This document shows, piece by piece, positions 9,479 to 33,622 of a stretch of DNA of 64,000 nt. Every line of letters starts with the position of its first letter. Position 1 is the stretch's first letter. The stretch spans positions 6,847,017-6,911,016 of the forward strand of contig SCHM01000004.1 in NCBI GenBank assembly GCA_004123355.1. Reading direction: 5' to 3'. This stretch comes from Amphirosellinia nigrospora. Lineage: Eukaryota > Ascomycota > Sordariomycetes > Xylariales > Xylariaceae. The notes beneath the pieces were generated by a model, which was not told the origin of the DNA, ran no database searches, and worked only from the letters and a program-made list of their open reading frames with translations. Position numbers and translations under genes: made by a program.

Positions 9479-9667
9479 CTAAATTGTACACGAGGTTCGT
9501 GTAGTCTGTATATGCTCATTAGCATTTGCTATAGCGGACTTGTAAGCGGCGCGGGCTGTCGAATTTTCGTTATTATTCGACGATAGAACAAGATGCTCCG
9601 CCGCTTTCCTGACACGGTCTCTGTTCCTTGTATTAATGGCGATCACGCGGTCGAAAAGAGACAACAT
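9479..9667 (-). pseudogene. Small ORF, possible frameshifted tail of the J-domain protein
   Basis: A 62-codon frame overlaps the end of the J-domain frame by 35 bases in another register. After a doubtful start it reads RDRVRKAAEHLVLSS, then a polar helical-looking tail ending TRTSCTI. Composition is like real coding sequence (charged, Ala/Asn-rich, no low complexity). I infer that it is either the original C-terminus of the adjacent J-domain protein, separated by an indel near 9640, or an unrelated chance frame. No domain is recognised. Confidence 0.3.
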
Positions 9668-10192
9668 CCGAGTAGTCGTAATACGACGACGAAGACCGCG
9701 ACCCCGGGGCTAAAGAACGGAATACAGACAACTGATGATTTAAATCGGCCTCTAAACGTTCGAGACGTCTGAGTGTGGAATTGCTAGTCTGGCTGGGATT
9801 AGCCCTTGTTTCTTGGGTGGTGCTTTGTGGTGGATTTTGCTTCTTCGACCTACTCGCTTTTTTGGGCTCACTAGCTTTACTGGGCTCGCTAGGTTTGCTG
9901 GAATTGCTGGTATCATTAGTTGAATACTTCCTTTTGCGGCGTTGCTGCTCATCGTAACCACGACGTTTAGTAGCGTTAGTCAGAATATCACGGGCTTCGA
10001 CAACTTTTACAAATCGCTCGTGGTTACGTTTTTCATGAGCTTTTTGCTCCGCAGTTGTCTCGACGCGGCCTCGAGGGATTGTTGTGATGTTGGCTTTATC
10101 CGGATGCAAAGTTTTGGATAAATCTCGAAACGCCTTCTAGATTATAGCCACATCGCATCCTTTGCAACGTTAAGCAGTTCGTAGAGATCCAT
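9633..10192 (-). pseudogene. J-domain (DnaJ/Hsp40-like) protein, decayed
   Basis: The gene starts at ATG 10192 with MDLYELLNVAKDA, the first helix of a J domain. After one change of frame it continues KAFRDLSKTLHPDKANI, with the HPD motif that stimulates Hsp70 ATPase, then RFVKVVEARDILTN and RRGYDE, the third and fourth helices. A Ser/Pro/Lys-rich linker (repeats of SKPSEPSKAS type) and a short possible coiled coil (LRRLERLEADLNHQL) follow. It is broken twice within about 20 bases near 10140-10155: a 1-base frame change after KDA, and a TAG just before KAFRD where a CAG would fit, the change RIP makes. No GT..AG intron fits the gap. An LTR retrotransposon begins 126 bp upstream of the start. 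J domain: confident. Pseudogene status: likely. Partner chaperone: unknown. Confidence 0.75.
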
Positions 10193-17792: not shown

Positions 17793-19135
17793 ATGACCTA
17801 CCCATACTACGAGGTCCCTGACACGCTTATATGGCAAGATCTTGAGCGGGATCTCAATAACCATATATAGGTAGCCAATGACGACCAATTTTGTGACACC
17901 TGTAGCCTGGAAAGAAATATTGGACGTGAATTTATAGTTCCTTCGATGGCCAATAGAAAGAAAAAAGTGCTTTCGCTTTTAACGAAAAGTTTACCACTAA
18001 ATAAAACCAAGGTTTTCTGGTCGATTAATCTTTTACTAGCGTTCGTGCAGCTCAAATAAGAAATTCCTTTGCCCGTAGTCCAGAAACCCAGGAAAGGACG
18101 AAATCCAGTCTGTATCGAACCTGGAAGAGCTATGCAGTATTATGGAAGGCGGAGCGTCAACATTACTGTAAGACAGTTTCAACATTTGCCAAATCATACC
18201 CTGATTTGCTGATTATACTGCCTAAAATCCCCAGTCAGTATACTTCATGGAGTAGAATAGATATTACAATCGAAGGTTTTCCGTAGTACGTAACTTCGCT
18301 GGCGTCACACCCTCTTTTCTACATTTAGTAATTGGGGTGGGTGCGAAATTCTTGTCGAAGGATGAGGATTTTATGTCTTGCTACAGCAGGTCATCATGCG
18401 AAGAGGGTGATTCACGTTGGGGTAATTATTCCCATTTAAAATTATCCTTAGATTACAACTTATTCATTTAATATTTTCAACCATATGCTATAACATGCGT
18501 TATTTCGAATTACACGGCCGGGGTTTGGAAGATCCGTGGACTTGTTGCCAGTCAGCTATTCACCATAGCCTTACGGTTTCCGGACGGTCAACCTGGGTCG
18601 TTATCCAGCCCCCCGATTTCACACCAACGGCACCTCCATCACTTGAGGGGAAAGCTCCACCATGCCCGCGATATTCTCATTAACATTAGAAACACATGCA
18701 GCGCTGTTGCTGAGCATGAGCTGTTTATAATTAGTGCAGGAGCAAAACATCTGCTTAGCCGTTCATAATGAGTTCCAGCGCGCTTTGCGCAACATTTTAC
18801 GTGAAACAGAAAATGATATTGAGACATCGGACAAACTTCTTTGTACATCGCAGGACTTGAAGTCGATAGTGAGTTCTGATACATTAATTCATGCCCCTAA
18901 ACTCGAATTGTTCCCTGAATCTGACTGAATCGATATATAGTACAGCAATATACTCACCTTTCATAGCCAAGAGTTGCAGCACGATACTAGCTTAAAGCTC
19001 GCATATTTAGCAGAGGATGATGTGGCAGGAGACAGAGACATGGCGGTCTCAGCCGACCTCACTTCTAAGGATTCGCGATCGATGCGCATTGCCACAACCA
19101 TAGCCATGTTCTATCTTCTAGTGAATTTAGTATTG
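17793..19135 (+). pseudogene. CorA-like fungal membrane protein, 5' part (interrupted)
   Basis: The product can be followed across three or more frames: MTYPYYEVPDTLIWQDLERD at the start (then a TAG where CAG would fit), SLYRTWKSYAVLWKAER and SWSRIDITIEGF in the second, VGAKFLSKDEDFMSCYSR in the third, then RYFELHGRGLEDPWTC with QSAIHHSLTV and STWVVIQPP. Near the end come DLTSKDSRSMRIATTIAM and FYLLVNLVL, the start of the first of two C-terminal membrane helices. This order (middle motif with DPW..RQ-like/HHS and WVxIQPP, then SRSMRIAT next to the membrane) is known from a large Pezizomycotina family with a CorA-type magnesium-transporter-like C-terminus. At least four frame changes and several stops make it a pseudogene. 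A retrotransposon follows directly at 19137, and the last exon lies at 24911-25159. Confidence 0.75.
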
Positions 19136-19136
19136 G
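19131..19136. repeat. Target-site duplication, left (TATTGG)
   Basis: TATTGG immediately precedes the left LTR, and the same six bases follow the right LTR at 24811-24816. Five bases (ATTGG) is the usual length for LTR elements, and the sixth match may be chance. Confidence 0.8.
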
Positions 19137-19344
19137 TATACGTGCTTATCAACCTATATTAAGTAACTTACGGGGCTTTCACTATTGCGGTTTGGGCTAT
19201 ATAGATCAGGTCTTAATATACTAGGTTGGTTAATTAAATAAAGGGCTAAATCTAGTTTTTATAATAGGCTAAATATTTATAGCTATAAAGTAAAGCTAGC
19301 TTGTAATGCTTGCTAAAGCTTTATTAGTTATTACTTTAAAACTA
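19137..19344. repeat. LTR, left copy (208 bp)
   Basis: Outer half preserved (GTGCTTATCAACCTATATTA, TTGCGGTTTGGGC). Inner half RIP-mutated (TGCTTGCTAAAGCTTTATTA for TGCCCGCCAGGGCTCTGCTA in the partner). The differences from the partner are essentially all transitions. Confidence 0.9.
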
Positions 19345-22300
19345 TAACTACTTTTTTTTTTAAATAACTGTTTTTAGTTATTTATTTTAACTAATAATTT
19401 TTATAATAAAACTATTTATAATTTAGCTATTTTTATTGCTTTTAAGCGCTTCCGATTGTTTTTTAGTATTATTTAACTAACATACTATAAGTTCCGTATA
19501 AAATAGCTATTATTATATGCAAGAAATAAATTAGTTCTATTATATATTTAATAGTTAAATTCTATTAAGGCTTTATAGCTTATATATTATTATAATAATA
19601 ATTCGCTATAGCTTATAGTCCGTTATAAAAAAGTTCTGTTTATGTTATATTAGCGTATTTATAATATTTATTTTTAAATACGTAAGTTTAAATTAATTTT
19701 TTTTTTTTTATAAATAAATTTTAATCTAATTTTTAAAAGCTTTTAAACTATTAAAATAGTTTTTTATTATATTTTATAGTTTTTATTAAGCTTTACTAAA
19801 ATTCGACTTTTTTTTTCGGTTAAATTTTTATATATTTAAAAATTTTAATAAATAATTATTATTAAAAAAGTTAAATATTAAATAAAAAAAATAATTATTA
19901 TAGCTATTTAGTTTTAATATTTAATTATAAATATTTATAGCTGTTTATAATAAAATAGCTATGTTAAAATATTTATATATTAAATTTTTTTATAATATAA
20001 TTCGTTTAAAGTTTTTGTTTGTTTTTTTTATTTTATTATTATTTTTAAATTTTCTAATATAATAAGCTTAACTATAAATCTTTTACTTTAGTACTACTAA
20101 ATTACTTTATTATTTACGAATATACTTTTATTATTATTAATTTATTTTTCGAGTACCCGAAAATTTTCCCGATTTTAATAATTAATAATATTATATTTAA
20201 AAATAATATATCGGTTATTATAACTACTTTATTTATATTATAACGTATTTTATATATATTAATATTTTTAGTTATACTATAAATATATAGTTTATTATTT
20301 AATACGTTAGTAATAATAATAATATTATAAATTATAAGTTTAACAATATTATTAATAGTAGTTTTATTAATTAATATTGTTTATATTTATTATAGCTTAT
20401 TATATTATTAGCGTAATTTTTAAATATTAATATTATTTATTAATTTTATATATTAAAATATTAATTATAGCGTATTTTTTAATATATATAATTTTAACTT
20501 TTTATAATAATTTTAATTTTTAAGAATCTTTAGGAGCGCTACTGCTTAATATGCTATTTTTATAAAATATAAAAGGTTTTTAAGGGTTTATTAATACCGG
20601 GCTATTTTATATAGTTTTTTTTTATATATAATAAAATGTTTAAATATTTATTAAACTTTTAAATTAATAATAATTCGCTATTAAACTTTAAAAACTTAAA
20701 TATAGCTTATAAGTTTATATAGTTTAACTATTATAATAGTTTAACTAACTATTTTTTTTATTTAGTAATATTTACGTTTTAAAGTTATATTTTATTATAA
20801 AAAAATAGTTTTAAAAAGTTTTAATAGCTAATTAGCTAATACGTTTAATTTACTTATATAATATATAATTTATATATTATAGTACTTAATAATATTTAAA
20901 AATCGAATTATTCGTACTAATTATTTTAATTTGCTTTTTATTATAAATAATAACTTATAATTAGTACGGATAATTATTTTTTTTTTTTACTTAATATTTT
21001 AATATTATAATACTAATATAATAGCTAAAAGTTTTTATTTTTATACTAAATAACACGTTTAATAATTACTTAGCTTTTTAAAAATACTATTAAATAAAAT
21101 ATTATTTTTTTTATAAAAATATAGCTATATTAAGCATACTTTAATATATAATTAACTAAAATTTATATTTATTATAAAAAAACTTTTAATTAAATATTTT
21201 AATTATTAATATTATAGTTATTACTTTTTAATTGTTTGCTAAGCTTTTAAGTTTTATATTTAATATAATTAGTTAATTTTTTGGTTTTTTATTAATGCTA
21301 TAAATAATGCCGCAATTAATAAAATTTATTAATTAAATATTTAAAATAACTTGCTATATTTATAAATCCGTATATTTTAATAGTTATTTTAAATATTAGC
21401 TTATTTTTTATTGCAGTTATTTTTGCTAAGTTTATTTTAATTTTTTTTTAAAATATATAAAATTTTAAAAATATATTTTAATTAATAAATATTAAAATTT
21501 TTAAAATTAATTATTATATTATACTACACTAGTCGTTCGAATAATATATAATACTATTAATATAGTTTTTTTTTATTTTTTTTTAAATATAAATATTATT
21601 TAATAAGCTTATTAGCTATTTTTTAAAAAGCTTTACGATTTTTTTTATTAAGGTTTAAAAAATAATTAATACGTTATAAAGTCCGAAAAATATAATTATT
21701 ATATATATCCCGAAAATATTAAATATTATTTTTTTACAATAAAAGCTATATATTTTTATATATTAATATTTATTTTTAAAATCTATAAAAATATACTACT
21801 TATAACCTATAGCTTTTTATATTTAATCCGCGGTATTTAGTAATAAATAGGCTTGTTTTTCGTAACTTTATTTAGTTTTTTATAATTATAGCAAAATCGC
21901 TATATAATATTTTTTAGTTATTAAAATTAAGCTTAATAGTTTTACTAGGTTATTTTTTAAAGTTAATAATACTGGCGCGCCTTATTTTATACCTTTTTTA
22001 ATATAAATATTTAAATATATTTAATAAATTTTTTATAGCTTTTTTTATATAAAGCTATATTTATAAAATAATAATTTTATTAATAAGCTATTTTTAATAT
22101 TAATATAATATTTATATATATTATAATATTAATACGTTATTTAGCTAAATTAAATAGGCTAAAAAATCGTTTTATTAGTTTTATTTATTTGTTTACTATT
22201 TAAAGGTTTTTAGCGTATTTTTATATTAAATTATTTTGTTTTTTTATTTTTTTTATATTATAAATTATTTTTATAGCTATATTAGCTAATAATTATTTTA

Positions 22301-24602
22301 AAAGTTTAAATAAAAATACTCCGTTAAATTTCGTTAGTTTAATTATTTTAGTATTTTTATATAGCCGAAAACGCTACTTTATTTATAAAAAATATGCTTT
22401 TTTAAAGTTACGTTATTAAAAAACGTACAGTTTAATATAACGTTTTTAATTACGGTTTAAAGTTTTATAATACTTTTATTATTATAAATTATATATAATT
22501 TCGTAGTTTTTTATAACTATTAATTTAATTTTTCCGATACTATATATAATTTTATTTTATAATTTATAAAGCTAAAACTTCGAAGCTAATAATTACAAAA
22601 TATAATAGCTTATATAATTATAGTCCTAAAATATTATAAATATATTACTATTATTTAGTTAAGCTTAAAAAAATTATATTAATCGTTATAACTATATTTT
22701 AACTTATTTTTTTTAAAATTATTTTATTACTTTTATTTAATTTAACTATATAACAAAGTTATTTTAAGCTTTATTAAATAAATTTTCTAATTCTTAATTA
22801 ATCCGGTCGTTTTTTAAGCGCTTTATAGCATTTTGTTCGAGTTTTTTAAAGTTTTTATTATTTTTTTATAAAATATACTTATTTTATAGCTTATTTTTAA
22901 AAAACTTATATTTAATTCTAAATTTTTAAACCTATTAACTAAATTATTATAATATAATATACTTTTAATTATAATAAATTAACCGGACTAACTTTATAGT
23001 TTTATTATTTTAAACTATTATATTTTCTTATAATAATCCTTAGCCTAGTAGCTAAGCTTATTTAATTAAAACATATATTATCCGCTACTTTCACTACATA
23101 CCCGTTATTATAGGTTTATTATTCCGTATTATTACCGTTAACTTCAGTAATATAGCTAACTTTCTGGCTATTAGTATAAAAGTTTAAAATAATTAATATT
23201 AGCGCTTTTAGGATTATTTTTATATTATCGACTAGCTAAATCTAGCTTATAGTAAGTTTATTTACTATATTTCTAATAATATTATAATTATAATAAAATA
23301 TTATATATTTTAAAATTATATAGTTATTTTAAAAATATTATAAATTTTTAGTTTTATTAAAATTATAATAATTATTCTTAATATTTATACTATTTTTTTA
23401 TAATTTAGCCTATATTCTATTCTTTATTAAAACGTTTTATATTAAACTAAATATTTAAAATATATATAATAAGCTTATTAATTATAACGTTATATATTTA
23501 TTAAATATTTCGAATATTTTTTAGCAGTTAATAAAAAGCTTTTTATAGTTTTTAAAAATAGCTTATATATACTTTGTTTTAAGCTAATAATAGTTCTATA
23601 AATATTATTAAAAAGCTATATAATATATTATAAATATTTAGTATTTAAATTATTATTTTTAAAAAATCAATCTAAATAGCTACTATATTATTATTTCTAA
23701 TAAATAACGTTATTTATTAAAATTATTTGCTAATTTAAATATAACTTTTTTAATTTATAATTCGTAAAATATTAAAACTATATTAGTTATACTTAAATTT
23801 AGCGTATTTATTTAATATAATATAATTAGCTCGAATTAAACATAAATTAAATAATATAATTACTTTATTTTTATTTTTATATTTGTTTAGTTTAATAGCG
23901 TTTTTACTAAGAATATATTAAAAAAAATAGCTTAAACTTGTTGTTTTATCGGTTTAAATAAAATTTAAGCTTTTATATTTTTATAAGTTTAATAAAAAAT
24001 CTTTTAATTATTTTTAATTAGTTATACTAGTTAATTATCGCATATTATTTATTTATTTTTTAATACCTATAAATATATATAAAAAGTTTACTATAATATT
24101 TATTAATATATTTATTAAAGCTAATAATATTAAAGTTATTATTAGTTTTATTATTATATTTATTAATATAATTATAGTATTACTACTTTAGTTTTATAAA
24201 CTTAGTTTTTAAAAACTTTTTTTATTTTTATTAATATAGCTTCGAATTATAAGTTTATTTTCGTTTTTAATTAGTCGATTCGTTTAATTATATTAATTAT
24301 TAACGCGTTAATATAAATATTATAGCTTATTATATTTATAGCTAATAAAACGCTTATTAAGTTATTTAACGTTAAGCTATTTATATCCGTATAAAACTGC
24401 TATTTTTGCTTCGAAATAAGCTCTCGTAAAATCCGCTATATATAAGACAATATTATAAGGTTTATTTTTTAAAATAAATTTTAACAAAATATTTTTAGTA
24501 TAATTATAAAGTTAAATTTTTATAAGTTAATCGGCTATAAGGTTATTTATAATCGCGCAATTAGTTTTAAATAAAAGCTATAAAACTACGTAAATAGCTA
24601 TT

Positions 24603-24810
24603 TATATATATTTATTAACCTATATTAAATAACCTACGGGGCTTTTATTATTGTAGTTTAAGCTATATAAATCAGGTCTTAATATACTAAGTTAGTTAAT
24701 TAAATAAAAAGCTAAGTCTAGTTTCTATAATGGGCTAAATACTTATAGCTGTGGGGTGGGGCTGGCTTGCAGTGCCCGCCAGGGCTCTGCTAGTCGCCAC
24801 CCTGGAGCCA
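24603..24810. repeat. LTR, right copy (208 bp)
   Basis: Mirror image of the left copy. The inner half is RIP-mutated, and the outer 65 bp from about 24745 are intact and GC-rich (GTGGGGTGGGGCTGGCTTGC onward to GGAGCCA). RIP therefore fades out inside this repeat. Confidence 0.9.
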
Positions 24811-24816
24811 TATTGG
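24811..24816. repeat. Target-site duplication, right (TATTGG)
   Basis: Second copy of the six bases at 19131-19136. The final G is also the first base of the intron donor GTGCGT. Confidence 0.8.
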
Positions 24817-24910
24817 TGCGTCTCTCTAATGAGTTTGCAAACTTCTAGTTCTCCTGCCTACCTCGCCGCTTACTTAAACGGTTAACTAATCGTTACTATA
24901 TTCATGTTAG
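24816..24910 (+). other. Intron of the CorA-like gene (95 nt)
   Basis: GTGCGT donor, TTAACTAAT branch-like motif at about 24881-24889, TTAG acceptor. Removing it together with the retrotransposon joins ..VNLVL to SLLSTTLVWYG in frame. That continuous run fits the family at the end of the first membrane helix. Confidence 0.72.
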
Positions 24911-25159
24911 TCATTACTCAGTACCACACTTGTCTGGTACGGGACGGCTGTAGATGTAGCCGAAAATGACAACTCAATAATCCATGTTCGCAGGGAGGCC
25001 TGGATCGCCATTGTTGCGGCTATTCTGCTTGCTGTTAGAACTATATGGTGGTCGTGGTGGTGGAACGGGAGGGAACAAAGAAAACAAAGTAAAAATACTG
25101 TTCAGGGGCTATCTACCCATAGAGCGAGGATTGACCAGAAGCTACAGAAGTTAATATGA
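24911..25159 (+). pseudogene. CorA-like fungal membrane protein, last exon
   Basis: This exon continues the gene that stops at 19135. It reads SLLSTTLVWYGTAVDVAE, then IIHVRREAWIAIVAAILLAV, then WWSWWWNGREQRKQ, and ends with a TGA at 25157. The second hydrophobic helix followed by a Trp cluster and a basic tail is the usual end of this family. The exon itself is intact. It has lost its 5' partner through the 5.7-kb insertion, unless the element were spliced out as part of an enlarged intron. That is unlikely because the element separates the exon from the intact donor. Confidence 0.75.
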
Positions 25160-25214
25160 TGAAAGTTCTTTTTGGTCTTATAAAATACCGTGTAGCGCCG
25201 AGCAAGTTGTTACT

Positions 25215-25250
25215 AAAATAGAAAGCTTTGCCGGCGAAGCTTTCTATTTT
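25215..25250. repeat. 36-bp near-perfect palindrome
   Basis: AAAATAGAAAGCTTTGCC faces GGCGAAGCTTTCTATTTT with a single mismatch and no loop. It lies 56 bp after the stop of the CorA-like gene and could act as a cruciform or a transcript hairpin. Confidence 0.85.
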
Positions 25251-25314
25251 AAATACGTTGTAAATCGAAGTATTTTTAGCATTTCGATTTAAATAACAAG
25301 AATATTCCTAGCTT

Positions 25315-25426
25315 TTAAACCTCCTATTCCTTAGATCTCCTACTTTTTAAACCTTTTATTCTTTAAACTTTTTATTTTTTAGACCTTTTACTCTTTAAAC
25401 CTCTTATTCTTTAGACTTTTACCTTT
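25315..25426. repeat. 16-bp minisatellite, seven copies
   Basis: Seven units of TTAAACCTCTTATTCT type in perfect 16-bp register, alternating TTAAAC and TTAGAC/TTAGAT starts. Pyrimidine-rich on the plus strand. Confidence 0.85.
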
Positions 25427-25434
25427 TACGTAAA

Positions 25435-25545
25435 TTCATACCTTTAGAGGGGCTCCGCCCGGGAGGGTTAGACCTCTAGGAACTCGGCCGCTATTTTTTA
25501 CGGTCCGGCCCTCGCCCTAGCCGGCCCTTTCATAACGCGTATCTT
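25435..25545. other. GC-rich cluster between AT-rich stretches
   Basis: TAGAGG (25445-25450) and CCTCTA (25472-25477) can pair around GGCTCCGCCCGGGAGGG. After that come CTCGGCCGC and CCGGCCCTCGCCCTAGCCGG, which can also fold. There is no reading frame. The origin is unknown. Confidence 0.5.
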
Positions 25546-25973
25546 TAACCGTGTTAATAAGTGCTAGTTTTATATTCGTATTTAAATATAGTAGTTGTTA
25601 GCAACTATATTTATTATTTTAGTATATAAGCTATATAGTTTATTTAAGTACGAATATGTTATAATTAATATTTCGATTTAAATTTTAATTAATAATAGCT
25701 TTATAAAATTTATATAAGCTAATTAAAATATTATAAAAAAACTGATATTTTTAAAGGTTACCGTTAAAACTTTTTAATCTTTATTTTTTCTATTTAATTG
25801 TCGTTATTAATATATATTTAGAAAGGTAAAGCTTTCTAATAATTATTTTCGATCACCTTCTACAGACATTGTCGAGTCAACAGAGTTTCGGCTAGCTCCG
25901 CAGTGACTACACAGTCCGCTTTAGCTCTCGTTATCGGCCGCAATTTGGTTTGATGTTAGTTCGATGCCTAAGT

Positions 25974-28816
25974 CTAAACTAGCACAACTGTCTGAACTTT
26001 GCTGCTATCTTCGCCAATTACATGCTGATACATCCCAAGGCGTTCGAAAGTCAGGTTATCAGCACCATCTACCCGGCGGAGCAGCAAGCAAGCCTTGCTA
26101 GGAAGTTCCGCATCTCACTAAGAGTCGCCATCTCAAGATACCAAATGCTAGCTAGGTCATTTTCTGGAGCGTCGTTATTTGAAGCAAGATCTAGAGATAC
26201 GTGTGGTGTTGTGCGTAAAGACCCATTGACGCTCATCATATAATTCTTGTCATCCTTTAATCTTCCGAGCCGTCCTTGAAGTTTGATGCTTCCCTTAACA
26301 TCAGTCTGAGCAAGATCCGATTGCACATCAAAGGAGATCACTTTAGCTGTCCAGTGAATGGCCACTTCTGCTTCACCTACATTATTCGAGATTCGAAGCT
26401 CAGAATCTGGCAACATGGAGGCCCAGCTCCACATTGGGAAGTTACGGACTCTTCCCTTCGGTGATGGCATTTCGACGAACCAAACTAAGCTCGCTAGGGC
26501 GTAGTCACCTTTCAAGATGCCGCCGATAAACTCGCTTCCTGAGGTCTTTTGAATTACCTGTCCTAGCCCTTAAATGGCAGTAATCCGATCTGACGGTTTC
26601 GTAACCAGTCGATTCCCGTAAGTTCCCAAAAGCCTGCAATATGCAGCGAAGTGTTCGTCTGCAAAAAGAGTTTTGAAATCAGAAGCTTCTCGGTTTGTCG
26701 AGGAATTCGTGCTCAACGTCTGGAGATTTCATGTGATGTGGAAGTAATTCTTGGCCCTTATATTGCCTGGGAATTGTATAGCTCCTCGGCGGCCATCCGG
26801 ATCATGTTCGGAAGCAGTGGCATCTAGGCATTCCCAAAGAACTACACCGTTGCCGTAGTAAAGGATTCTCTTGCTAAGAACTTGTTTCTGTAGTGTCCAG
26901 GCTCCAGACTCGATCGGGCTTCCCATTACCCCATGAACGGAAAGTTTGCATCAGGATAGACAGCCAGATAAGACAGGGGACGGGTCGGACGGACGACCGA
27001 AAGATCTGAATCTCTAGTGGGTAATATCTCCTTTATACGATCCCGTTTAGGAAGCCGCATATGTATTTGTTGAGGGTTGAAGAACCCGTCTGGGTGAGAG
27101 CGAAAGAGCCCGTCGTGAGAACTATTGCAACCGAGGTTGTAATTGTTAAAGCAGCATTTGCATAGACCTCAGTCATCTTGACCGCTTCGCGCAGCCAATC
27201 ATCGTGGTCGTCTTGAATGATACAAAGTGCATCGATCCATAAATACTTGAAACCCATGCCACGGGCGACATGGATGGCATCAATCAGTGTACGTGGTAGC
27301 TCATGAGGGTGAATCGCCTTATAATACTGTTGCAGGTTTTTCGTTGTCGTCTTATGTGCATCAGACAATGTCCCAACAGTAGGATAAAGCACAATAGCTA
27401 TGATTTTGCCCTTTGCTCTCAAACAGGAATGGATCGCGGGCATCGTCTCCAACATCTACAACGCGAGTAGGGAGTGTAGTCAAAGCATTGACTCGGCCAC
27501 AGATTTCGTGGCTCGTGACGCAGTTTTCCAACCATGCTTTAGCAACTTGAAAAGAGCTTAAAGACGAAGTTCCATTCTCATACTCGTCAATCAACGGCGA
27601 CATTTTAATTGTCCTCTCTGCGTTTCATTAGCCTTCGGAGTTCTAGATTGCAAATTTACTTCGGAGTTTATATCGTAACGCACCATTAAGATAACCGACC
27701 CCCAGCTCAGCCGCAAGGTCCCTACAGTAACATGGATTTTGTTAGGGATATGTAGATGCAGATATACATGACGCGTGGGGAGATGTTGGTACTTGGATAG
27801 CGCATCTGCAATGTGAGGGCTATGGTTTTTGACCACGTTCAATGCTCGCAGAAACACGCGACACAAGCGACAACCTAATTTGGCTGATGACTCCAGGTCA
27901 TCCAAAATTTGATGGTGTCTAAAGCAATTTTTGAGTGTTTGATTTGCGCCCTCATTTACACATCTGCATGACTCATAAGTACTTAGCGTCTGATATTCCA
28001 AGCACAGGGTACAGAGACTATCCTCGGCAGGCTCGATATTGAGTCTTTGCGCGGTCGAGGAGACGGCGTTGAAAAAATTGTGAATAAGCTTGTCCGAACC
28101 AAGTTTCCGCTTTCCGCTAGGCTCAGTGGCCATATACTGGGTTACATTGCAAGTTACGAGCACGAACGCAAAGAACCGGTGACAATGCCGAGGTGGAAAC
28201 CAGTCGGAATGTGATGCGGCGTGCAAAAGGTCATGTGCTGCTGCTTCATCCTTGTCTCGATCATGATTCTCCAGTTCCTTGACAGGAGAGAATGATGCTC
28301 CCAGTTCAACAAGAGTATCCATGATACTGACTTGGCGATCGATCAGCGAGAGGTCGAGAGGTAGCCAGCCGTTCGTAGATTTGTTGACATCGGCGCCAGC
28401 CCGAGCCAAGATCCGAACCATCCGAGCATCGCCATTTCTGAGCGCCTCATGTATAGGTAAAACATACTCGTCCTTATTTGCGAGATTGTCATAGTCCCCG
28501 ATCTCGTGACCAGCGGTTCGTGCTCCGCTGAACATGTTAGGGTCCGCACCACGGGCGAGAAGCAACTCGACGACTTTATAATACCCGAGACGGATAGCTT
28601 CCTGAAGCGGCGTCCGTCCTAGGGAATTGAGAAAATGAATATCTGCACCATGGTCAAGAAGATATGTGATCGCATCTTGTTGTTCAGTAGCTATCATTCG
28701 ATGTAGCGGCGTGTTCCAGTGTGGCCAAGCGGTCACTCGCACGGAAACTTGGGATGCTCATTTGAATGTGTCGGTTCATTGCCCTTTTTGTTGCGAATTG
28801 TGTTTAGCAGCCGCAT
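25974..28816 (-). pseudogene. Ankyrin-repeat / HET-domain protein, decayed
   Basis: HET domains trigger cell death in fungal vegetative (heterokaryon) incompatibility. A likely ATG is at 28816, with a frame change before the long frame at 28742. That frame carries about four ankyrin repeats (NTPLHRMIATEQQDA, GRTPLQEAIRLGYYKVVELL, LPIHEALRNGDARMVRIL, GWLPLDLSL). After them comes the Cys pattern usual before HET (LCTLC, then SAKLGCRLCRVFLRAL). The HET domain itself follows in other frames: YCALSYCW, GFKYLWIDALCIIQDD, YANAALTITTS, then GAWTLQKQVLSKRILYYG, MWSWASM and NLTFERLGMY at the end. At least seven lesions break it, including a frame change right after YCALSYCW (about 27372) and an in-frame TAA at 26570-26572. 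The motifs are still well kept, so decay is recent. Not expected to make a working protein. Confidence 0.85.
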
Positions 28817-29493: not shown

Positions 29494-32400
29494 TTATGCC
29501 TCCTCAGGCGGCTGATTAGCCCGGTTTCCCGAGACGGAAGCCCGGGTCTCCTCGACGTTGTACTCCCCAGTAATCCTTTCCACGTCATCCTGCCCCTCAA
29601 TCTCCTGCCATAGGTTCCTATCCGTGGGGAAGAATACCCTCTGCAACGCCGTGACACCCACATTGACGCCTAAAACGATGATTATGCCAGCGATAGCGAC
29701 GACCCACCAAGCAAGGCTCTTCCCAAACTCGCCCGTAAACTCGTGGTAGACGCGGTATTTCTCGCCCCGCGAATATTTAAGAGGTAGGGCGTCGATAACG
29801 AGGAGGAAGAAAAACCAGAGCGATATTGATAAAGCGAAGGCAGCTAGTGGTATCCATGTCTTGTGGTGCATCTCAAGTATGCTATAGGTTGAACGATATT
29901 AGATGAAGTTTACAAGTTACCGAACTGAGGTAGCACTTACAGGATCTTGACGTTGATTAAGACGATTGCAATAGTCAGACCTAAGGACCCAATTGGGAAG
30001 AGAGAGTTATCATGCGATGGGCCATGAAATTGTCCATTTTCAGGGAAGCCGGTGAGGTTATACTGAAATTCGGCCCATATAATGACAAATATCGTGATCG
30101 TGTCGACAGTACCTGACAACAGCCAGGCAATGCATTTCTTCAGGTTGATGCCTTCGTCTCGCTGGCCAAATGAGTATAGCTCAGGAACTGCGAGGAGGGT
30201 CTCGGGCGATAAGTCCTGTTCACAGAGCCCGAGAAAGAAGACGGGCAAGGATGTAAAGATAGCGTTATAAGCTGTTAGACACCACTGTTGATAAAGCGAC
30301 GTCCCGCTATAGCCCGTAAACCCTTGAAATTGAGCTTGAACGATATAGAAAACCCATTCTTTCCAAAACGTAGAGAGAATGTATTTGCTTGTTCTCAAAC
30401 TAGGTCATGTTAGCAGGCATATCCATCATATGAGAGTACATGAGTGGAAGTGTTGGGTTATTACTCACTACAACCAATGACCATGAACAAGTAAGAGTCG
30501 TTGGAGAAATCGGAACTGTGCAATGGCATAATCCGCTACTCGGGCAGCCTGAAGACCTTCCCGGCCGGATATACCAATACCCACATGAGAGGCCTGGATC
30601 ATGGCAATATCGTTGGCTCCGTCGCCGATTGCCAGAGTGACGCAAGAGGGATCCGTGTCACGGATACCTTTAACCAGGTTCGCTTTCTGGCTGGGCGAAG
30701 CACGGCAACAAATTACCGAATCAATACGAACGGCAAGCTCAAAGAACATACTACTCAAAACTTGGCTCTTTTCCACAAGACTTAGAGTATGGCCATCAAT
30801 GACGAGAACTGAATGTGAGACCAGATCTTGCTCGACGTCAGAAAATATCCTTCTCATCGTTGCCTGCGGGTCGTCAGTCGTTGCGTCAAGCATGTAGATC
30901 TCGGAGAAGGATTTCGCCAAGTTGGCCGAGCGTGCGATATTAATGGCGGTCTCCCGTTTATCGCCGGTTAACATCCACACCTTGATATTGGCCCGTCGTA
31001 GTTTATCAATGGTCTCGGGGACTCCGGCTTGGAGTTTGTCCTCAATCGCACTCGCGCCGGCGAGCTCAAAGTCTTTTTCGATGGATTCCGCAGCGCTCTC
31101 GATACGTTCTTGGCGGTCAAGGAGGCTGGTAGTCGCATCCTTGAAGGCAGCGTTCCAGGCTTCATACTCCCGATCGCTTATGTACCTATATCCGTATAAT
31201 AAAATACGCAGGCCTTCCGTAGCATACCGATCAATGTGCTTGAAACTCTTCTCAAAGACTCTCGCTTCATCGGCAGCGACGGACTCATCAATAACGCCGT
31301 CATGATTCTCCTCACTATCGTCACTAGAAAGATCCGTCGGCTCGGTACGCAAAGTGCGTGTTTCGTCATCCTCTTGCCTACTTGCTCTGCTTAATCTCCT
31401 TAGGTCTTTTGAGTTTCGTGCACTCTGCGCCCGAAAGAAGCTTGAGCGCCGCCCATGGCTTGTTCGAGGTGTGGCCATACTTCTGCGCTGCATAGCTCTT
31501 TCGGCTTCCATGCTGTGGCGTTCGCGAGCTTTTCGGTCGACTTCGCCCGCTGTCTTTGCTGCCAGTTCGGACAGTCTAAGACGGCTCATGATCACATTGT
31601 CAGCACCTTTACAAATCACGCAAATCCTTCCATCAGGCATTCGCACGACAATCGACATTCGCTTTCGGTTGCTACTGAATTCGATTACTTTCAAGATTTC
31701 GTAGGTTTCTATGACCGATTCGCCAGATTCGTCCGGTACGCTGAGCTTAATTGACTGGGCAGGACGATCAATCAGAAGGTAGCCCAAGTCTTGCGCCGCT
31801 TGTACCAGGGCAACTTCATCCGGAGATGCGGCCTGAAACGTAATCTCGCCATCCTCGGATATCTCGGGAAGGCAGGTGTGGCAAAGAGCAATACACAGCA
31901 GAAATTGCCCGGCTTGCTTAGAGAATGCTGTGTTGGGATATTCTCGGATATAGTCTAGCATCGATTCGGTCCCTGATCCCAGGCGCGAAGTTGATGCTCC
32001 CTTAGAAATGGTCTCCAAGTGTATTTTCGCAGCAATGTTGATATTTTCGCTAGAAGTATCTGCATTCTTAAGACTCGTGGGAGCAGTCTTCTCCTTGTTT
32101 TGGAACAGCTCGCTTTGGAGGCTTCCTACACTCATATTCATAGTGTGAAGCCAGCTCGTCCCCCCAACTGTAAGCTTTCGAAATTGCATATTGTTTTCGG
32201 TCAAAGTACCAGTCTTGTCCGAGAATACGTAACTCACTTGGCCCAGATCCTCGAGAATAGTATTAGTATTAATGGAGATGGGCGTGTCTGTCTCAGCATC
32301 ATACATCTCGATGTCATTCATCAGATAGGCCTGAAAGACCTTGACGAACTCGATAACGATGTACAAGGATAGCGGAATGAGCGCGTTCAGCAGAATAAGG

Positions 32401-33622
32401 GTTCCAATGATGATAGCTGGGGCAGATACGGGTGCCAGGGACAGGAACGGATTCTTCCTCTCATATCGCCGCTGCCAGAGGACATAGCCTCCACTGATGC
32501 CTGCTGTAATTGAAAGCAAAATAATCACCATGGCTATGACAATACGGTTGAGGAATCTATTGATCCTCGGCGATTTGGTGTGCACATATTGATTCGCATT
32601 CATGCGGATTTTACATTCCTCGCCTGTGTTGACGACGATCCCGATCGTCTCTATAGTGTTTCGTATCGTGGAACCCCGAAACACCACTTCGTTCAAGGTC
32701 AGCGGCGACGTTTCGCCATCGACAGTGATGCGACCTTCGAAGTCGTAGAGGTTGGCGTTTGGATCTTCGCAGACAAGCTCCCCCAAGCATTTCTCCAGCT
32801 TTGAGGTAGTATCACAGCGGTTTGCAACAAGGGTGGGTGGCTGCTTGCTTTTCAGGTTTGTCTCGCCGTCTAGCGCCATCGTATCGATATAGGCTACAGA
32901 GTTGGCTCCGGTCGCGTGAAGGAGCACAATGTCGGCGGGAACCCTTTCGTTCCTCTCTAATCGAACGATGTCGCCTACCCTTAGGTCTCGCCACTTAATC
33001 CGAGACCATCTATTTTCATCTCCCTTCCGTGATTTAGGCTCAGTCGCTATGATTCCCGCACCCTCCTGTGTTTGATTCCCCTCCCTGGTATTTCTATCCA
33101 AAAGCTCTAGGGGGTGACGATTGATCCGCTATCCAGAGTTCCGCCGGGCTCGAGTACTGAAACACACGCCTGATTGTCTTCCCTGTCTAACAGATATCGA
33201 CGGTAATCGTCCCATCCCTCTTTTGCCATGATAAGCGCAATAAACGCAAGTAAAGGGCCGAGGGTTGTGAACTTTCCAGTCGGGCTCCAATCACGAATTT
33301 GTTGAAGAATGCCTATTACCAAGAAATAAAAATTCGCAAGCCTCCCGAACTGGAAGACTAACTGTTTTGGTAGGAATGACAGAAGAGTATATCGATTAGA
33401 GCGAATAGAGTTCGATGTGTAGTTGATGCCGCTTCGTTCGTCTATGAGAGGCTCGTTCCGGACGGCCCCGCCATTTAGGGGTATGTGTCGACCATCTTTA
33501 CTCGGAGGGAGAGGCTTTTGGCGTAGGCCCTCGATAATCCACTTCTGGTAATAGTGCTCGCCAGACTCCTCCGCCCTCGCTTGCCATCTCCTCGCTCGTG
33601 CCAGGCTGCCATCAATTCGCAT
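29494..33622 (-). CDS. P4-type ATPase, phospholipid flippase (Dnf3/DnfD type)
   Basis: P4-ATPases move phospholipids from the outer to the inner leaflet of Golgi, endosomal or plasma membranes. All catalytic signatures are present in order: DGET in the actuator domain, phosphorylation site VFSDKTGTLTENN (about residue 470), PLSLYIVIEFVK in membrane helix 4, ASPDEVALVQAA and VICKGADNVI in the nucleotide domain, WMLTGDKRETAINIA, AIGDGANDIAMIQASHVGIG, and a C-terminal membrane half. LPPSKDGRHIPL, EGWDDYRRYLLDRE and RQERIESAAESIEKDFE resemble Dnf3 rather than Dnf1/Drs2/Neo1. The Arg/Ser-rich insert (QRRSMATPRTSHGRRSSF) is a likely regulatory loop. The segments are 33622-33110, about 33109-30469, 30396-29941 and 29881-29494, with two introns. 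One indel in a C run at 33110-33114 breaks the frame; the rest is open (about 1,330 residues). It may be a sequencing error or a fresh mutation. In-frame coding-like sequence continues upstream to 33826, so the true start may be further 5'. Confidence 0.9.
29882..29940 (-). other. Flippase intron (59 nt)
   Basis: GTAAGT donor at 29940 and CTATAG acceptor ending at 29882. Splicing joins INVKIL to ILEMHHKTW in frame within a membrane helix. Confidence 0.85.
30397..30468 (-). other. Flippase intron (72 nt)
   Basis: GTGAGT donor, TGCTAAC branch site, CTAG acceptor. Splicing joins LLLVHGHW to LRTSKYILSTFWKE, the expected continuation in P4-ATPases. Confidence 0.9.
33110..33114 (-). other. Frame-breaking homopolymer in the flippase gene
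   Basis: Five C on the minus strand. The upstream frame ends ..SIVTP then TAG. The downstream frame is reached as PLELLDRNTREG by one base. Six C (or three) would restore continuity, and no splice signals are present. Confidence 0.75.

Follow-up and report, generated by a model that had tools for sequence, protein, structure and literature searches.

A retrotransposon that stands on an exon-intron border raises the question of where exactly its ends lie, what kind of gene it entered and what is left of that gene's product. The case described here lies in a window of 64,000 nucleotides (the whole stretch of DNA analysed; contig C6, positions 6847017-6911016), within a genome of 48.1 Mb in 11 contigs. 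A gene patch near 26-38 kb of the window has AT-rich blocks (about 5-25% G+C) on either side, and the low-G+C repeats, the RIP-type dinucleotide indices and the introns suggest a filamentous ascomycete in which RIP is active. Amid the RIP blocks, an islet of higher G+C (9636-10109, minus strand) gives a weak DnaJ match of 20 bits, below the cut-off of 27.8.

To place the ends of the element, we aligned the genome places retrieved by the left LTR of the window copy (36 of the 44 found) and by its right LTR (37 of 43). The 8 and 6 places dropped by eye were tandem neighbours, fragments or places present in the other set, and the copy numbers are lower bounds, since only 40 of 91 candidates were scored in the left-LTR search and 40 of 94 in the right-LTR search. 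The aligned left-LTR set starts with TG in 18 places and with TA in the other 18. In the two bases that follow the right-LTR end of the preliminary description, the right-LTR set reads CA in 31 places and TA in 6. At least four of these 37 places (L091, L095, L098 and L100) are left LTRs, with internal sequence next to them, and the terminal CA stands at the equal position in them too; some of the other places may be solo LTRs. The family LTR is thus TG...CA, and it measures 210 bp in the window copy, where both LTR termini read TA.

Because the family copies end two bases later, the LTRs reported at first as 208 bp, in an element of 5,674 bp, become 210 bp and 5,676 bp, and the target-site duplication becomes TTGG. 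The element occupies 19137-24812 on the minus strand, with the left LTR at 19137-19346 and the right LTR at 24603-24812. The duplication lies at 19133-19136 (TTG from the exon, G from the donor) and at 24813-24816, read on the plus strand. The letters TATTGG do stand on both sides, as first reported, but a duplication of 6 bp is ruled out by the family border: the right-hand TA is the LTR terminus, and its match to the TA of the exon is due to chance. A single RIP-mutated copy can therefore mislead by two bases about the LTR borders and make a duplication seem longer than it is.

The length of 4 bp is consistent across the family. In 26 left/right LTR pairs, including that of the window, with 4.9-13.5 kb between LTR starts, the 4-bp flanks match at all four positions in 17, at three in 8 and at two in 1. 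Ten of the 36 left places had no partner within 15 kb and are outside these pairs. When 12 stretches of 1-1.2 kb were inspected by position, 3 of these 10 left LTRs and 1 of 2 right LTRs proved to have a partner; among the four further pairs the flanks agree 4/4 in three and 3/4 in one. The copy L104, a fifth further pair, has TTAA on both sides (4/4). The LTR sets were retrieved with the LTRs of the window copy itself, which biases them toward copies mutated alike. In seven copies (L058, L059, L075, L078, L085, L089 and L096) a TAGGTACCTA-like sequence adjoins the right LTR, which may reflect a preferred target or a host repeat common to these sites.

The internal region (19347-24602, minus strand) is RIP-mutated and of Ty3/gypsy type, with 13.5% G+C, and no stop-to-stop frame of the window copy is longer than 88 codons. 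Elsewhere in the genome, some copies still have long open frames. The less mutated L104 carries, on its minus strand, frames for a CCHC knuckle (gag), RT with RNase H, and integrase, three in all and in the order of Ty3/gypsy elements. Of its integrase matches, the core (28.2 bits) falls below the Pfam cut-off of 32.6, and the zinc-binding domain is above its cut-off. The internal region of the window copy aligns plus/plus with L104 along its length, at 61% identity. Given the strand of gag-pol in L104, this alignment places the window element antisense to the host gene, so that its left LTR is the 3' LTR and its right LTR the 5' LTR, and rules out an insertion in sense.

As in the Ty3/gypsy elements (Metaviridae) of filamentous ascomycetes, we find a CCHC gag, the order RT-RNase H-integrase, TG...CA LTRs and a short duplication. 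Integrase after RT-RNase H is read from L104, the window copy itself being too mutated, and the direct TG...CA LTRs are a family-wide feature that in the window copy reads TA..TA. The duplication of 4 bp is inside the range of 4-6 bp known for Ty3/gypsy elements. The family differs in its short LTRs (210 bp) and in the 4-bp duplication itself, 5 bp being commoner among Ty3/gypsy elements.

The two LTRs of the window copy differ in 50 of 208 compared columns, and all 50 differences are C/T or G/A, as expected for the C-to-T and G-to-A transitions of RIP. Against the LTR of L104 they differ in 49 and 33 aligned columns with zero transversions, under a scoring that favoured transitions. The RIP-type dinucleotide indices are present in the element and absent from the upstream flank, which looks unmutated (TA/AT 0.71, (CA+TG)/(AC+GT) 1.43). 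The right host flank (24811-25170) is intermediate, with TA/AT 1.25, (CA+TG)/(AC+GT) 0.94 and 44% G+C; customary cut-offs for these indices would class it as RIP-like, and slight RIP is possible there. Some 60 bp past the stop codon of the gene, a second AT-rich, RIP-like patch (25220-25850, 27% G+C) contains, by eye, a short inverted repeat (AGAAAGCTT..AAGCTTTCT) and degenerate short tandem units. Since the LTR differences are the work of RIP, the divergence between the LTRs is no clock and gives no date for the insertion. The family resembles crapaud of Podospora anserina in the RIP decay of full copies, and the part of the crapaud study available to us also notes that RIP can change the G of the terminal TG to A (PMC10787394).

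The corrected borders leave the empty site as first proposed, TTAGTATTGGTGCGTC: the joined sequence ..GTGAATTTAGTATTGG+TGCGTCTC.. is identical under a duplication of 4 bp or of 6 bp. The upstream exon (18941-19135, plus strand) ends, as described, in ..TTAGTATTG, within the first predicted membrane helix (..FYLLVNLVL). The original intron of 95 nt (24816-24910, plus strand) runs from GTGCGT to TTCATGTTAG, and the last exon (24911-25159, plus strand; 82 codons and a stop) begins with SLLSTTLVWYG... and contains a second hydrophobic stretch, EAWIAIVAAILLAVRTIWW. It continues the frame of the exon ending at 19135, giving NLVL|SLLST in phase 0, so the preliminary intron and reading frame hold. The duplication had been said to span the exon end and the donor; it does straddle the border, consisting of three bases from the exon end and one from the donor start. 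Searched as DNA, each flank matched only itself in the genome; a second copy would have been a candidate empty site. With four exon-intron borders in about 1.2 kb of modelled gene, a random 4-bp duplication would straddle one in about 1% of cases; among the dozens of copies of this family, one such landing is nothing unusual. The insertion is genuine, an ordinary transposable-element insertion of a well-known kind, recorded here to the exact base.

The state of the gene upstream bears on what the insertion could have changed. Within the upstream coding part there is an in-frame TAA (18728-18730, plus strand), followed by a probable intron of 72 nt (18869-18940, plus strand; GTGAGT...CTGAC...TATAG, phase 0 on both sides), whose removal also takes out two more stops. 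Further upstream, translation gives possible pieces of the gene in two other frames (18271-18690, plus strand), which may resemble fungal CorA-like proteins. A phmmer comparison of these upstream pieces with 18 CorA-like loci of the genome gave nothing convincing among the matches listed, and a genome search with a piece of 44 amino acids found only itself. The frame changes and the TAA suggest that this copy of the gene is probably broken elsewhere too, so it does not follow that the element put a functional gene out of action.

The gene may, then, already have been a pseudogene when the element arrived, in which case the position at the junction had no consequence. The likely pieces in different frames and the TAA at 18728-18730 agree with this, as does the confinement of the gene remnant between AT-rich blocks. 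Nevertheless, the exons on either side of the element have open frames, and the signals of the intron are preserved. The other breaks follow from a gene model that no homologue here supports, and one genome cannot show the order of events. We consider an earlier loss nearly, though not quite, as probable as its opposite.

The two flanks could also belong to different genes, the 95-nt intron and the exon behind it matching by chance, and this bears on the identity of the gene. We built a CorA-like helix profile from 11 loci of the same genome found via PF01544, 7 of which are above the Pfam cut-off. The first hydrophobic stretch aligns without gaps to this profile, and the joined exons score 11.3 bits, which is low, against 7.9 bits for the unspliced exon. 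The best of 1000 shuffles of the joined protein reached 5.9 bits, but shuffling breaks hydrophobic runs and is lenient. The better control, 1002 reading-frame pieces of the window, gave as its best score the 7.9 bits of the unspliced exon itself and 5.4 bits as the next. Furthermore, a paralogue excluded from the profile, L021 (39.8 bits against it; Pfam CorA match 22.6 bits, below the cut-off of 27), has an intron of 69 nt between ..FLPPTFVA and TFFGM, in phase 0, which the profile alignment puts at the homologous codon boundary. The survey for such introns covered 15 printed loci and L019 among the 18 CorA hits, with L011 and L020 left out. L021 is the only one of the 15 printed loci with a clear intron at this boundary, the other loci being without gene models, and L019 has no clear intron there. 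That joining lifts the score from 7.9 to 11.3 bits, above all 1000 shuffles, and that L021 has an intron at the matching boundary and phase make separate genes very unlikely, even with no Pfam family above cut-off and a weak profile score.

The same evidence bears on the CorA-like name given to the gene at first. Joining the exons brings the protein closer to the helix profile, but the score is weak and the joined protein has no match to Pfam CorA (PF01544), its best match being NicO at 16.8 bits (cut-off 27.7). In CorA proteins a GMN motif follows the first helix; in the joined frame GMN is absent and STT stands there. A protein search of the genome with the C-terminal part of the joined protein found only itself and no paralogue, and phmmer of this part against 1497 pieces of the 18 CorA-like loci gave a best E value of 1.3. 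The gene has the two C-terminal hydrophobic stretches in common with CorA-like fungal membrane proteins, and differs from them by lacking GMN and a Pfam CorA match. The family name is thus weakly supported by sequence comparison, and we use it here as a provisional label.

The preliminary description held that the element separated the exon from its donor. The natural donor was indeed moved, and now lies 5.68 kb from its exon, but a GT was recreated exactly at the old exon end (TTG|GTATAC; 19136-19141, plus strand) by the last base of the duplication and the first T of the LTR, with the rest of the donor context lost. Used with the old acceptor, it would define an intron of 5,775 bases; read through without splicing, the frame adds eight codons (VYVLINLY) and stops at 19160. 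Splicing from the new GT (19136) to the acceptor at 24910, which would make the element effectively part of a 5.8-kb intron, is highly improbable, for although GT directly follows the old exon end and the acceptor and downstream frame are intact, the donor reads GTATAC in place of the natural GTGCGT, introns that long are rare in filamentous fungi, and an in-frame TAA and frame changes lie upstream. With the donor 5.68 kb away, so long an intron needed and the unspliced frame closed, the gene most likely has no full product now.

Taken together, we consider it very likely that a Ty3/gypsy element inserted antisense into a CorA-like gene at a TTGG target shared by exon and donor and was later mutated by RIP, the full product of the gene being most likely lost. 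A Ty3/gypsy-type element, present at dozens of places in the genome, would have integrated antisense into a gene for a CorA-like membrane protein. The local sequence and the family-wide length of the duplication show that its integrase cut at TTGG with a stagger of 4 bp. RIP later turned the repeat AT-rich, with the outer parts of the LTRs retaining most of their G and C. Further breaks in this copy of the gene are probable, and they may have preceded or followed the insertion.

The retention of G and C in the outer parts of the LTRs is a pattern of the family as retrieved. In the right LTR of the window copy the outer third is almost without mutation and the inner third is mutated. Among the 26 pairs, in sets retrieved with the LTRs of the window, which favours such copies, 50 of 52 LTRs keep more G/C in their outer third (70 bases) than in their inner one. 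Retention at G/C columns is 82% over the outermost 26 bases of left LTRs against 42% over the innermost, and 97% against 34% in right LTRs. The four pairs completed by position show an excess of the outer part in 7 of 8 LTRs; counting only the LTRs that were located by position, it is 3 of 4.

That RIP acts less near the edges of repeats is our guess at the mechanism. In its specific form, RIP would set in about 70-100 bp from the border of a dispersed repeat and work inward from this margin, leaving the outer side of an LTR spared and its inner side mutated, a proposal that we rate at a little below an even chance. If true, LTR divergence would gauge location with respect to the edge of the repeat instead of age, and the signals for integration at the termini and for splicing would persist at insertion borders. 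We found no description of outer-part sparing by RIP in a surface-level search, partly with narrow phrases, of the literature on RIP and repeat edges, and it is a difference from crapaud, for which the available part of the Podospora anserina study describes none (PMC10787394). If upheld by unbiased sampling, the sparing would be a measurable property of RIP that can be checked in any RIP-active fungus.

Downstream of the disrupted gene, the minus strand of the window carries further features. A HET-domain fragment (27036-27455; PF06985, 1.5e-19) lies near ankyrin repeats (27594-28742), and four reading-frame pieces at 29494-33622, parted by introns or breaks, correspond to a P4-type phospholipid-translocating ATPase, with its N- and C-terminal domains.
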